53,125 nt of DNA, taken from Treponema sp. (GTDB lineage: Bacteria > Spirochaetota > Spirochaetia > Treponematales > Breznakiellaceae). A model generated the notes under the pieces. The model was not told the DNA's origin and made no database searches. It was given only the letters and a program-made list of their open reading frames with translations. Below, piece by piece: positions 37,958 to 42,075 of this stretch. How positions within the stretch are numbered: position 1 is the stretch's first letter; each line of letters begins with the position of its first letter. Where the stretch lies: positions 1 through 53,125 of the forward strand of contig JAIRQN010000039.1 in the NCBI GenBank assembly GCA_031256445.1. The letters run 5' to 3'. The translations under genes and the position numbers were made by a program.

Positions 37958-38308
37958 TTACAATTTTGGATTTTCAGTTTCAACCTTGTCGCCGTCTTTA
38001 AAAGGCGCAAGAGCGGCGCTCATGCGCACGACAGAAGAAGATCTGTTTATCACATAATGAACCTCACCCGGTTCAATGTGTATAAACTGCCCCGCCGCAA
38101 GATCGTGCGCCTTCCCGTCCACAACAATGGTGACGTTCCCTTCCAATACAAAAAAGTTTTCTTCCATTACTTCGTGATAGTGCGCCCGGAAATCCTGTCC
38201 GGGCATGAACTGTACCAGCGCGAAATTCATGCGCGGCCCTTGCATTAAATATTTTGGGCCCCATTCGCCGAAGCGGTACTCTTTGTCTTTTTCGTTAACA
38301 ATATACAT
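37958..38308 (-). CDS. Small cupin protein next to AI-2 kinase gene
   Basis: A 116-residue single-domain cupin. The metal-binding motifs are complete: HYHEVMEENFFVLEG (motif 1) and PGEVHYVIN (motif 2). AGGAG precedes the ATG, 3 nt after the lsrK stop, so it is cotranscribed with lsrK. The canonical lsr operon places LsrG, an isomerase acting on phospho-AI-2, beside lsrF; no LsrG is present here. A cupin is a plausible replacement because cupins often isomerise small phosphorylated or keto compounds. That role is inference only. It could equally be an unrelated sensor or sugar epimerase. Confidence 0.85.
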   Translation of the reverse strand: MYIVNEKDKEYRFGEWGPKYLMQGPRMNFALVQFMPGQDFRAHYHEVMEENFFVLEGNVTIVVDGKAHDLAAGQFIHIEPGEVHYVINRSSSVVRMSAALAPFKDGDKVETENPKL

Positions 38309-38311
38309 ATT

Positions 38312-39877
38312 TTACTCCTGTAAACCTGGTGAGCACCACATATAATTTGTAATTCCATCGTCGCTTAAACGCAGAAGCGGTTTATACGCAGCCTGCCAGT
38401 TTTTATACGCTTTATCGTACACCTCGCGGTTATCCGCGTTAGGTGAAAATATTTTTTCAGTTTTCACCAGGGCGCGGGCGGCTTCTTTTTCATTTTTATA
38501 AATGCCGATTCCCTTGCCCGCCATTATCGCGGCTCCAAGGGAAGTGGCTTCTTTTACAACGGGAACTTCAACAGGAATGCCAAGCACATCGGCGAGTATC
38601 TGGGGCCATACCGCGCTCTTTGCTGCTCCGCCTGCGAATACTATTTTACCGGGCCTGCCGCCTGTCGCTTCCTCTACAAGACGAAGGTGTCCCAGAGTTA
38701 CGAGGCAGGCGTTTTCCATAATGGCGCGGTAAAAAGCGGCTTTATTGTACTTTTCCGCATCCAGCTCAAAGTTGATAAAAGCCGGAGATGCGTGTTTCCA
38801 GTTTATGTAGTTCATTACATCGGAAAAAACGCAGATAATGCCGTAACTTCCTGCGGGAACCGACAGGGCCATTTCGTCAAGAATCGCGTAAGGGTCGGTA
38901 TTTTTTTCGGCGGCAAGGCGTTTTTCCTCCGCGCAGAATGTGTCCCTGAACCAGCGCATAACAAGGCCCGGATTAAACGCAAGAGCTTCGTATTGCCACA
39001 TGTTTCCGCAGGCGTGGCAGTTAACGCGCACATCGAATTTCGGCGAACAGACGGGAGAGCCCGTATTGAATTCGTACTGCCAGAAACTGCCTCCGAAAAC
39101 GACCGCCTCTCCTTCCTCTGCAACTCCTACGCCGATTGTTCCAAGCTGGCAGTCTCCGCCCCCTGTGACAAGGACAGTGTCTTCGCAAAGCCCGCTCTGC
39201 GCCGCGCCTGTTTTTGAAACCCTTGCCGCGACAGCGCCGCATTCCTTTACATCGGGGAAAATATCATCGCGAAGGCCGCAGCGGCGCGCGATTTCCCTGT
39301 CCCAGTTACGCGATCTTAAATCCATCAGACCGGTAGTTGAGCCGTTGCTGGGTTCTACTGCAAGCACGCCGGAAAGTTTAAAAATGATCCAGTCGTTTAT
39401 CATCCCCATGCGGGAGGTTTTCCCGTACACCTGCGGCAGTTTGTTTTTTACCCATAAAAGCCGCGGGAGAGCGCCAAGCGCGAATGTCTGCCCTGATTTT
39501 AAATAAAGTTCCTTTTCAAGATTCGGATCTATCCGCTTTAACTGGGAGACTTCGTCTTTCGCGCGGGCGTCTACATTAGCGCATGCGAAAAGTTCCCTGC
39601 CTTCGCTGTCATAAAGAACAATTCCTTCTCTCATGCAGGTAGTGGAAACGGCGGCTATATTTTCCGCGCCGATCCCTGTATTGGCAAGAACCTCTTTAAT
39701 ACACGAGCAGGTTAACTCCCAATTTTCCTCCCATCGGAAATCCATGCTTCCTGGAAAACGCGGGTCTTGCGGATGTTTCCATTCTTTCTGTACGCAGCCA
39801 ATCTGGTTGCCTTTTACGTCAAAAATGACAGAACGGACGCTTCCGGTTCCAGCGTCAATAGCCATGAGATATTTCAT
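38312..39877 (-). CDS. lsrK: Autoinducer-2 kinase LsrK (FGGY family)
   Basis: Phosphorylates the AI-2 precursor DPD inside the cell. The N terminus YLMAIDAGTGSVRSVIFDV and the run IAAVSTTCMREGIVLYDSEG with FACANVDARA are characteristic of LsrK among FGGY kinases. Further matches are PSNGSTTGLMDLRSRNWD, MRWFRDTFCAEEKRLA, VFAGGAAKSAVWPQILADV and VKEATSLGAAI. It has 521 residues, about the length of the Escherichia coli enzyme. It was first compared with xylulokinase, but these LsrK-specific stretches decide. The ATG is 7 nt after a perfect -10, with no Shine-Dalgarno, so the message is probably leaderless. It is divergent from lsrF. Confidence 0.9.
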   Translation of the reverse strand: MKYLMAIDAGTGSVRSVIFDVKGNQIGCVQKEWKHPQDPRFPGSMDFRWEENWELTCSCIKEVLANTGIGAENIAAVSTTCMREGIVLYDSEGRELFACANVDARAKDEVSQLKRIDPNLEKELYLKSGQTFALGALPRLLWVKNKLPQVYGKTSRMGMINDWIIFKLSGVLAVEPSNGSTTGLMDLRSRNWDREIARRCGLRDDIFPDVKECGAVAARVSKTGAAQSGLCEDTVLVTGGGDCQLGTIGVGVAEEGEAVVFGGSFWQYEFNTGSPVCSPKFDVRVNCHACGNMWQYEALAFNPGLVMRWFRDTFCAEEKRLAAEKNTDPYAILDEMALSVPAGSYGIICVFSDVMNYINWKHASPAFINFELDAEKYNKAAFYRAIMENACLVTLGHLRLVEEATGGRPGKIVFAGGAAKSAVWPQILADVLGIPVEVPVVKEATSLGAAIMAGKGIGIYKNEKEAARALVKTEKIFSPNADNREVYDKAYKNWQAAYKPLLRLSDDGITNYMWCSPGLQE

Positions 39878-39878
39878 A

Positions 39879-39907
39879 TTGAATATTATATTATTACATA
39901 ATAAAAT
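39879..39907 (+). promoter_or_regulatory. Promoter of lsrF (plus strand)
   Basis: TTGAAT at 39879-39884, a 17-nt spacer, TAAAAT at 39902-39907. Initiation near 39914 leaves a 23-nt leader holding GGAGG at 39927-39931. It overlaps the opposite lsrK promoter almost completely. Confidence 0.65.
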
Positions 39908-39914
39908 ATGTAAA
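39885..39914 (-). promoter_or_regulatory. Promoter of lsrK (minus strand), leaderless
   Basis: On the minus strand, TTTACA (39909-39914), an 18-nt spacer and a consensus TATAAT (39885-39890). The expected initiation base coincides with the A of the lsrK ATG at 39877, and no Shine-Dalgarno exists between. Confidence 0.65.
39894..39913. promoter_or_regulatory. Inverted repeat, likely operator of the divergent lsr promoter
   Basis: TTACATA (39894-39900) and TATGTAA (39907-39913) form a perfect 7+7 bp palindrome with a 6-nt centre. It covers the -10 of lsrF and the -35 and spacer of lsrK, so one bound dimer would control both. The regulator is not in this window. Confidence 0.6.
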
Positions 39915-39936
39915 GGATTTATTATTGGAGGATAAC

Positions 39937-40818
39937 ATGGCTGATAAAGAAGGAATTAAAATTGAAAAAAATTATTATACTGATATTCCCTTTAAAACAA
40001 AAGGGGATTTTCATGTAAAGGGCGCGGCCAATCTTGACTGGGGGATGAAAAAACACCTGACCAACATTTTTAATCCCAAAAGCGGCAATACAGTCATGTT
40101 CGCCTTCGATCACGGCTACTTTATGGGTTCGGTTTCCGGCCTTGAGCGGCTGGATATACTCATCCCACAACTGATAGATCATGTGGACGTACTTATGGCG
40201 ACGCGGGGCGCGCTCAGAACATGCGTAAGACCGAATTTCAGAAAGGGCATCGCGCTTCGCGTGTCGGCGGGTTCTTCCATGATAAATGACGATCTCAGCC
40301 ATGAACTGGTTTCTGTTGACATAGAAGATTCAATCCGCATGAACGCAGACTGCCTCGCCGTACAGACCTTTATCGGCGCGGACGGGCAGCTTTCCAGCAT
40401 AGACAATCTTTCCAGAGTGATAAATTCAGGCGCGCGTTACAGCATACCTACGTTAGGTGTCATTGCCGTAGGAAAAAACATGGAGAGGACAAGCCAGTAT
40501 TTTAAACTGGCAACGCGCATAGTGGCGGAACTTGGCGCGAACATTATAAAGACATACTACTGTGATGATTTTGAAGATATAGTAGCGGCGTGCCCTGTTC
40601 CCATTGTAGTCGCGGGAGGGAAAAAACTTCCCGAAAAAGAAGCTCTTGCAATGGCGTATGAATCCATTCAGGGCGGCGCGCGCGGACTTGATATGGGCAG
40701 AAACATTTTCCAGAGTTATCATCCTGCCGCAATGGCGGACGCAATAGGAAAAATTGTGCATTACAAATACACGGATAAGGAAGCGTGGGAATATTTTCGC
40801 GAGAAAACAAAAAAATAG
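39937..40818 (+). CDS. lsrF: LsrF-type 3-hydroxy-5-phosphonooxypentane-2,4-dione thiolase
   Basis: Last step of AI-2 breakdown: transfers an acetyl group of the phosphorylated AI-2 product to CoA, giving dihydroxyacetone phosphate and acetyl-CoA. It is a DhnA-class aldolase-fold enzyme of 293 residues. LsrF landmarks: LDWGMKKHLTNIFNPKSG, VMFAFDHGYF, VDVLMATRGALR, and the Schiff-base Lys205 in ANIIKTYY, then PVPIVVAGGKKLPEKEAL and DMGRNIFQS. The ATG at 39937 is chosen because GGAGG lies 5 nt before it; a TTG at 39925 overlaps that site. It pairs with lsrK across a divergent promoter and is followed by a GH10 gene 24 nt later. Confidence 0.93.
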   Translation: MADKEGIKIEKNYYTDIPFKTKGDFHVKGAANLDWGMKKHLTNIFNPKSGNTVMFAFDHGYFMGSVSGLERLDILIPQLIDHVDVLMATRGALRTCVRPNFRKGIALRVSAGSSMINDDLSHELVSVDIEDSIRMNADCLAVQTFIGADGQLSSIDNLSRVINSGARYSIPTLGVIAVGKNMERTSQYFKLATRIVAELGANIIKTYYCDDFEDIVAACPVPIVVAGGKKLPEKEALAMAYESIQGGARGLDMGRNIFQSYHPAAMADAIGKIVHYKYTDKEAWEYFREKTKK

Positions 40819-40842
40819 TATCGGGTAACGGGAAGGTTTTTT

Positions 40843-42075
40843 ATGGAAGACAGGTTTAAATACCGCAAGGCCGCCTTAAAGCTGCGCCTTTTATCAGAAA
40901 ACGGATCTCCTGCCGCAAACCAGGAGGTAAAGATCAGCCAGAAAAGCCATCAGTTTTTATTCGGCACAGGCGGTTTTGACGCTGTTGAACTTGCCGGAGG
41001 CGGACCTGACGGAGAGGCAGTAGATGAAAAAAGAGCCGCGTTTCTGAATGATAAACTTAATAAAATATTTACTGTTAATAATTACGCTACGCTGCCTTTC
41101 TACCTTGGCAGATATGAGCCGCAGGAGGGCAAACCAGACGAAACGCGCCTTAAAGCCGGGGCGCGCTGGTTTGAACAGAGGAACATCGCAAGAAAAGGGC
41201 ATCCGCTGTGCTGGCATACAGTCTGCGCTCCCTGGCTGATGAACTACTCAAACGCGGAAATTCTGCAAAAGGTAATCGCCAGAATAGAACGCGATGTGTC
41301 TGCCTTTGCCGGGTTAATTGACATATGGGATGTCATCAATGAAGTCGTCATCATGCCGGTTTTTGACAAATACGACAATGCCGTTACGCGGATATGCAGG
41401 GAATACGGACAGATACGCATTGTTAAAGAAGTGTTTGAAGCGGCAAGAAGGGCCAATCCGAACGCTGTTTTGTTGCTCAACGATTTTGACATTTCAAAGG
41501 ATTATGAAACGCTGATAGATAAATGCCTGCAGGCAGGAATTAAAATTGACGTGATCGGAATTCAGTCGCACCAGCATCAGGGGTATTGGGGAGCCGAAAA
41601 AGTCTGCGATGTCCTTGAGCGTTTTTCACGTTTTGGGCTGCCGCTTCACTTCACGGAAAACACATTGATCTCCGGAGAAATTATGCCCTCCCATATCGTT
41701 GATTTAAACGACTGGCAGGTTGAACAATGGCCTACAACGCCGGAAGGCGAACAGAGGCAGGCGCGGGAGATGACTGAAATGTATGAAATTCTTTTCAGTC
41801 ACAGGCAGGTAGAAGCCATTACAACATGGTCATGTTCTGATAACGCATGGCTTCACGCGCCGGCCGGTTTGCTTCGGACGGACAACAGCGAAAAACCGTC
41901 ATACAAGGCATTAAAAGAAAAAATTTTGAATGAATGGCGCACGGAAATCTGCGCGCGCGCAGACTCAGACGGCTGTGTTGCCATGGAAGGCTTTAAGGGC
42001 GTTTATGAAGCGTCGTTCATGGGAAAGACTGTATCATTTAATCTGGACGGGAAAGCGGATTCGGTTACTTTATAA
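40843..42075 (+). CDS. Glycoside hydrolase family 10 protein, apparently cytosolic
   Basis: GH10 enzymes cut beta-1,4-xylan or xylo-oligosaccharides with retention. The acid/base Glu167 is in IWDVINEVV and the nucleophile Glu272 is in LHFTENT, a variant of the usual ITELD form. Substrate-cleft signature KGHPLCWHTVCAPWL is present. The TIM barrel fills residues 55-375, with an extra N-terminal segment of about 50 residues and a short C-terminal domain. There is no signal peptide, so it would act inside the cell on short xylo-oligosaccharides. AAGG is 6 nt before the ATG. It sits in the lsrF transcript and overlaps the 3' end of the next gene by 11 nt. Why it accompanies AI-2 genes is unknown. 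Confidence 0.88.
   Translation: MEDRFKYRKAALKLRLLSENGSPAANQEVKISQKSHQFLFGTGGFDAVELAGGGPDGEAVDEKRAAFLNDKLNKIFTVNNYATLPFYLGRYEPQEGKPDETRLKAGARWFEQRNIARKGHPLCWHTVCAPWLMNYSNAEILQKVIARIERDVSAFAGLIDIWDVINEVVIMPVFDKYDNAVTRICREYGQIRIVKEVFEAARRANPNAVLLLNDFDISKDYETLIDKCLQAGIKIDVIGIQSHQHQGYWGAEKVCDVLERFSRFGLPLHFTENTLISGEIMPSHIVDLNDWQVEQWPTTPEGEQRQAREMTEMYEILFSHRQVEAITTWSCSDNAWLHAPAGLLRTDNSEKPSYKALKEKILNEWRTEICARADSDGCVAMEGFKGVYEASFMGKTVSFNLDGKADSVTL

Follow-up and report, generated by a model that had tools for sequence, protein, structure and literature searches.

An LsrK-associated cupin, a candidate phospho-DPD isomerase, in a transporter-less AI-2 locus of Treponema

Many bacteria share the signal autoinducer 2 (AI-2), and how long it lasts is set by the removal of phospho-AI-2, a step that has been studied on the basis of the enterobacterial LsrG/LsrF pair. 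In this study, we analyzed a 53,125-nucleotide stretch of Treponema sp. DNA (contig JAIRQN010000039.1, the window) and found that the AI-2 kinase gene lsrK is followed at 3 nt by a small cupin gene, in a locus that also contains lsrF. It is very probable that the cupin belongs to the AI-2 pathway and has been overlooked there, since genes of its subfamily follow lsrK in dozens of spirochetes and gut Clostridia. The locus itself, which has neither transporter nor regulator, is best explained, from sequence comparison, as derived from a cupin-type form of the lsr operon that is widespread. What the cupin does is less certain, and we weigh below the proposal of a first-pass annotation of the window that it supplies the isomerase that LsrG provides elsewhere.

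Association of the cupin with lsrK

Among 345 Spirochaetota genomes, 17 encode a protein above the NCBIfam cut-off for LsrK. We consider 14 of these to have a true LsrK; the other three (G068, G003, and G039 in our numbering; 545 to 593 bits) have LsrK-like proteins that form a separate branch of the LsrK tree and lack lsr neighbors, and they were set apart. The cupin subfamily, defined by a threshold of at least 110 bits, is present in 12 of the 14 true-LsrK genomes and in none of the other 331 (Fisher p = 1.9e-20, a value that overstates the independent evidence because the genomes are related). The association holds if four weaker cupin matches (72 to 100 bits) in LsrK-negative genomes are counted (p = 3.3e-17) or if the three divergent kinases are classed as LsrK (12/17 versus 0/328, p = 1.3e-18). 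The two LsrK-positive genomes without the cupin are G138, where lsrK has an in-frame stop, and G028, which is 83% complete and has lsrK on a 4-kb contig. In Bacillota, the genomes surveyed contained LsrK in only 2 of 349 cases, too few for a co-occurrence table.

The association extends to other phyla. When 84,980 species were scanned, 265 relatives of the cupin were found, and we analyzed the loci of the best 80. About 73 of these 80 cupin genes immediately follow lsrK in the same orientation, in Treponema and other Spirochaetota, in Clostridia (Anaerotruncus colihominis, Enterocloster, Clostridium magnum, and many Lachnospiraceae and Oscillospiraceae), in a metagenome-assembled genome (MAG) labeled Atopobium, and in Candidatus Fibrimonas. 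Wherever one locus holds both genes (88 loci), they share a strand, with 7 to 318 nt between the matched regions. Seven of the 80 loci lack a full lsrK. For four of them (L050, L074, L089, and L101), lsrK occurs elsewhere in the genome, as a partial gene in the case of L089; the remaining three come from MAGs, and in two of those the cupin gene lies at the end of a contig. The cupin was found by tblastn under longer antisense frames in L032 and L040 and on another contig in L033 (genome G295). Apart from the lsr products, no enzyme other than the cupin is conserved among the loci. The co-occurrence, the constant strand, and the four genomes in which lsrK persists away from the cupin led us to reject the idea that the cupin is a random neighbor. 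Its distances correlate with those of LsrK (r = 0.86) and LsrF (r = 0.88), as expected of co-inherited genes, a result that pathway linkage and shared ancestry would each be predicted to give. The near-constancy of a cupin after lsrK in these groups makes it a marker for true AI-2 operons.

The expectation that such cupins would accompany lsrK without lsrG held for the 80 cupin loci, in none of which tblastn detected lsrG. Searches of whole genomes found no LsrG above the cut-off in 50 cupin genomes, one of which gave weak matches, or in 17 spirochete genomes. These searches were controlled with E. coli K-12 MG1655, E. coli LsrG itself, and Sinorhizobium, the default E. coli control having scored under the cut-off for LsrK, LsrF, and LsrG.

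Two loci bear on how the genes move. In G177, of the same genus as the window (L175, 8392-9294), lsrF and a neighboring glycoside hydrolase family 10 (GH10) gene are kept while both true lsrK and the cupin are absent, which suggests that these two genes come and go as a pair. In G661 (L186, 1391-1804), a divergent LsrK-like kinase (589 bits) is directly followed by a Cupin_2 protein, apparently of another subfamily.

Gene identities, missing genes, and complete operons

The window genome (G000; 2.79 Mb in 107 contigs, 97.7% complete) encodes orthologues of the E. coli kinase and thiolase, as the first-pass annotation had proposed from sequence stretches. LsrK (521 amino acids [aa], FGGY family; lsrK at 38312-39877, minus strand) matches NF008187 (NCBIfam) over residues 1 to 519 with 750.8 bits against a cut-off of 528, has E. 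coli LsrK 5ya0 as its best Protein Data Bank (PDB) match (558 bits, E 2e-166; 49% identity to E. coli LsrK), and carries the FGGY motifs, including the catalytic GGGDxQ motif. LsrF (293 aa, 3-hydroxy-5-phosphonooxypentane-2,4-dione thiolase family; lsrF at 39937-40818, plus strand) scores 397 bits against NF006081 (NCBIfam; cut-off 297), and its best PDB match is E. coli LsrF 3gkf (308 bits, E 5e-91). It keeps all nine E. coli LsrF residues checked (D57, K203, Y205, G226, G227, D251, M252, G253, and R254), the catalytic and phosphate-binding residues being taken from the structure paper (PMC2728841).

The cupin (116 aa; 37958-38308, minus strand) matches PF07883 with 67.6 bits over one domain, with AraC_binding as a secondary Pfam match. 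It has the features of a Cupin_2 protein, namely both cupin motifs, a putative metal site of three His and one Glu, and a predicted barrel, so that the earlier description of a two-motif cupin 3 nt after lsrK proved accurate. The putative ligands H43, H45, E50, and H84 are invariant in 74 of 74 aligned sequences, and the subfamily has the signature YR(x4)GPKYLxxGP. The AlphaFold2 model (mean predicted local distance difference test [pLDDT] 82.6) is a cupin beta-barrel with template modeling scores of 0.74 to 0.81 against 1v70, and the nearest solved folds include the Thermococcus phosphomannose isomerases 7zvm and 7zvy and KdgF (5fpz, 5fpx, and 5fq0). Its fold and sequence are unrelated to LsrG, and comparison with LsrG models gave no score. 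Assignments to PuuR, ureidoglycine aminohydrolase, or other NCBIfam families were rejected, as all matches were far under the cut-off.

That lsrG is missing was confirmed for the genome as a whole, which has neither a member of the ABM family (PF03992) nor a match to NF007791; an LsrG hidden elsewhere in G000 was thus rejected. The claim that the transporter and regulator are also missing stands in part. No LsrB orthologue was found (best genome-wide score, 25.9 bits), and none of lsrACDB is in the locus, the genome-wide search having covered LsrB and not LsrA, LsrC, or LsrD one by one. LsrR is absent from the locus and was not detected genome-wide with a single spirochete query that lacked a positive control, a weak negative. 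LuxS is encoded at C73:6002-6424.

The minimal layout did not hold up as the general form. Among the 80 loci, 35 are complete operons by tblastn (lsrR, A, C and/or D, B, F, and K plus the cupin) and 16 have neither transporter nor regulator with at least 6 kb of upstream sequence present; lsrF is found in 14 of these 16. The transporter was therefore most likely lost, or lies elsewhere, in the clade of the window. In the complete operons, LsrB keeps part of the AI-2 site. Of the six AI-2 contact residues, which we take to be K35, D116, D166, Q167, P220, and A222, the first four are present in 46/46 rows of an LsrB alignment drawn nearly entirely from cupin-type loci (E. coli and Sinorhizobium included), and P220/A222 is N/S in 42 rows and P/S in 2. 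Clostridial LsrBs tolerate changes of the P220/A222 type. LuxS is encoded by 12 of 14 minimal-type genomes, including that of the window, versus 13 of 28 full-type genomes (p = 0.02, taxonomically confounded), a distribution that is suggestive of minimal loci recycling the cell's own DPD (4,5-dihydroxy-2,3-pentanedione). A PF03547 (AEC-type) membrane transporter gene lies beside lsrF in 22 of 86 cupin-type lsr loci (e.g., L082, 334-1269), and it is possible that it carries AI-2 or a product.

Possible roles of the cupin

LsrG is known to convert phospho-DPD so that LsrF can pass an acetyl group to coenzyme A (CoA), giving dihydroxyacetone phosphate (DHAP) and acetyl-CoA (PMC8016206). In the pathway that we propose for the window, LsrK would phosphorylate DPD/AI-2 to phospho-DPD, a 4-hydroxy-2,3-dione; the cupin would convert this to the 3-hydroxy-2,4-dione by metal-assisted alpha-ketol (enediol) isomerization; and LsrF would move the acetyl group to CoA, yielding acetyl-CoA and DHAP. 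The cupin would thus be a non-homologous replacement of LsrG. A shift of carbonyl and hydroxyl between C3 and C4 amounts to an alpha-ketol isomerization, and cupin sugar-phosphate isomerases carry out such chemistry with a metal. Because the genome has LuxS and no detected LsrB, the most likely source of substrate would be DPD made by the cell itself or AI-2 taken up by another sugar transporter.

Several comparisons favor this proposal. The 35 complete operons have no other linked isomerase. Cupin and LsrG are nearly complementary outside the enterobacterial cases described below, and they fill the same slot in different lineages: on Sinorhizobium pSymB and in Thalassospira, LsrG (NF007791, ABM fold) directly follows lsrK at 43 to 54 nt. 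A Lacticaseibacillus paracasei plasmid carries lsrF and genes for a binding protein, permeases, and an ATPase, together with a regulator-lsrK-cupin-rbsD group, and no lsrG lies in the stretch. The Thermococcus phosphomannose isomerases share the single-domain Cupin_2 fold and act on sugar phosphates in the same class of chemistry; they differ in genome context and show about 23% identity to the window cupin, for which phospho-DPD is a proposed substrate.

Other observations weigh against it. The operons of a Salmonella plasmid and of E. coli MS 196-1 hold lsrACDBFG, an epimerase gene in the lsrE position, lsrR, lsrK, and the cupin. Because these operons keep LsrG alongside the cupin, LsrG has not become dispensable in those enterobacteria, and a strict rule of cupin instead of LsrG had to be rejected. 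Mutants without lsrG over-express lsr (PMC2728841). At another site in its genome, G256 encodes a weakly LsrG-like protein (81.5 bits), and Deinococcus has lsrK and the cupin with no lsrF in the 16-kb stretch read. An LsrF-family protein of G256 that exceeds the LsrF model cut-off is located in an MtnK/MtnA operon, and since the NCBIfam model accepts this protein as well, the LsrF substrate in the window is itself only presumed. Neither the residues nor the structure of the cupin single out an isomerase over other cupin chemistry. The objection from coexistence is softened, not removed, by the divergence of the enterobacterial cupins: Glu49, present in 73 of 74 aligned cupins with the Salmonella protein as the sole exception, is Cys in both the Salmonella and the MS 196-1 sequences, and the Salmonella cupin has 45% identity over 88 aa. 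The missing-isomerase proposal thus gains from the lack of LsrG in G000 and the strong association with lsrK, loses from the loci that carry both genes, and leaves the cupin a hypothetical isomerase, to which we give about an even chance of performing the LsrG reaction.

The lsrK-cupin pair is also not confined to a non-enteric lineage, as the cupin follows lsrK in the Salmonella plasmid and E. coli MS 196-1 as well as in Lacticaseibacillus and Deinococcus. It is found in 125 of 5,426 E. coli genomes, of which MS 196-1 was read in context; in E. coli K-12, lsrK is not followed by such a cupin. For genetic work on the cupin, the E. coli lsr loci that carry it are a convenient system.

The coexistence with LsrG fits better with a cupin that acts in the AI-2 pathway at another step, where it would ring-open, mutarotate, or dehydrate AI-2 or phospho-DPD in the manner of KdgF or SqvB/SftX, with isomerization being spontaneous or due to an unlinked enzyme where LsrG is absent. 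AI-2 occurs in cyclic, linear, and hydrated forms (PMC8016206), KdgF structures are among the closest folds, and rbsD, encoding a ribose pyranase of a mutarotase family, comes after the cupin in Lacticaseibacillus. A parallel exists in sulfoglycolysis, where DUF4867 cupins linked to FGGY kinases are proposed mutarotases or ring isomerases (PMC11968277). KdgF and the DUF4867/SqvB/SftX proteins resemble our cupin as small metal cupins near sugar catabolic genes; theirs is the opening of keto-sugar rings, KdgF has about 20% identity to the window protein, and on present evidence none of them belongs to the LsrK-associated subfamily. On this reading, the 35 full operons would have no linked enzyme for the LsrG step, and the way cupin and LsrG alternate in the slot after lsrK would not be accounted for; we regard it as the main rival, a good reading though a less likely one than the replacement of LsrG.

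It is improbable that the cluster does not serve AI-2 at all, with LsrK, cupin, and LsrF acting on another deoxy-pentulose such as 5-deoxyribose or a plant-sugar derivative, as would be consistent with the xylanase neighbor. The GH10 gene begins 24 nt past lsrF in the window and is found beside lsrF in L051, L056, and L060, no LsrB was detected in G000, and LsrF-family proteins of other spirochetes are found with MtnK/MtnA, DhaK, and Zn-alcohol dehydrogenases. Against these points, the window LsrK exceeds the AI-2 kinase cut-off by 220 bits, the genome has LuxS, and transporter-bearing relatives have LsrR, LsrACD, and an LsrB with four of the six AI-2-binding residues.

Least probable is a cupin that binds phospho-AI-2 without catalysis, or quenches it by dioxygenase-type cleavage of the dione, and so tunes signaling and does not feed LsrF: Cupin_2 proteins do include sensor domains and dione-cleaving dioxygenases, AraC_binding is a secondary match, and lsrR was not detected here or in other minimal loci, but the putative ligand set is complete and invariant, the cupin is conserved also where lsrR is present, and an O2-dependent enzyme is unlikely as many carriers are probably anaerobes (termite gut and Clostridia, judging from their names).

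If the cupin does replace LsrG, the history of the pathway may be read as follows, which we offer tentatively. A branch of lsr systems in Spirochaetota, gut Clostridia, lactobacilli, and others would use a metal cupin isomerase unrelated to LsrG; the cupin could be ancestral, LsrG having replaced it later by way of an intermediate like the Salmonella-type operons, which keep both; and the termite-gut clade would be reduced to LuxS-fed internal recycling of DPD without import. A cupin-first history is possible because, in an LsrK tree built by a quick method and containing long branches, cupin-linked lineages are found both within the principal clade of Spirochaetota and Clostridia and among deep branches (L031/L034 and Deinococcus), with the LsrG-linked proteobacteria placed between them.

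The cupin is apparently an undescribed component of the pathway, conserved as it is. We found no paper that joins a cupin with LsrG or lsrK in the open-access literature, and an earlier mention elsewhere is possible. Lsr genes in a spirochete, ascribed to gene transfer, were reported for Spirochaeta smaragdinae (Quan and Bentley 2012, PMC3420918); that paper mentions no cupin, and no description of a transporter-less form was found in it. Among recent surveys of AI-2, one describes LsrB in Spirochaetota and another lsr operons in gut Firmicutes; neither mentions LsrG, and the former does not mention cupins. If the cupin does the job of LsrG or a further step in spirochetes and gut Clostridia, the AI-2 pathway as described is incomplete, and surveys that require LsrG or that label the gene "cupin domain-containing protein" overlook it.

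Layout of the Treponema locus and neighboring genes

As in the E. coli and Salmonella lsr operons (lsrACDBFG, lsrR, and lsrK), the window has LsrK and LsrF orthologues in a divergent arrangement with the LsrF active site preserved; it differs in having the cupin after lsrK and no detected LsrG, LsrB, or LsrR in the genome. The lsrK-lsrF intergenic region is 59 bp. It contains a sigma-70-like sequence, TTTACA-18-TATAAT, at 39885-39914 on the minus strand, which matches 11 of 12 consensus positions and is the probable promoter of lsrK-cupin; eight sites of this quality occur in the region versus 5.7 expected, so that the match alone is no proof. A Shine-Dalgarno sequence for the cupin, AGGAG, lies within the 3' end of lsrK (38315-38319, minus strand), and translational coupling of the two genes is probable. 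Given this site and the promoter on the lsrK strand, lsrK and the cupin look like a single transcriptional and translational unit. The Shine-Dalgarno sequence of lsrF, GGAGG, is at 39927-39931 on the plus strand.

The range 37958-42075, annotated at first as an AI-2 locus, is so for lsrK, the cupin, and lsrF; its remainder is the GH10 xylanase gene (40843-42075, plus strand), which is no AI-2 gene. We rejected GH10 as a pathway member, since it is a neighbor in only a few close relatives. In L049, it remains near the cupin though lsrK and lsrF are gone.

Spirochete lsrF genes also occur without LsrK. In L169, L170, and L171 the neighbor is a Zn-alcohol-dehydrogenase-like protein and in L173 a DhaK-type kinase, and the L170 region also holds a VOC-type protein. 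The G256 gene (L182, 8579-9466) shares an operon with the genes for MtnK (S-methyl-5-thioribose kinase), MtnA, a Zn-alcohol dehydrogenase, and an ABC transporter; this may be a 5-deoxy- or methylthio-ribose aldolase route with an LsrF-type enzyme.

In the LsrK tree, the window organism clusters with Treponema MAGs whose isolate codes point to a termite-gut host. Beyond lsrF, loci of this group encode a conserved protein of about 402 aa with no Pfam match (L061, 1134-2342, and 10 others).

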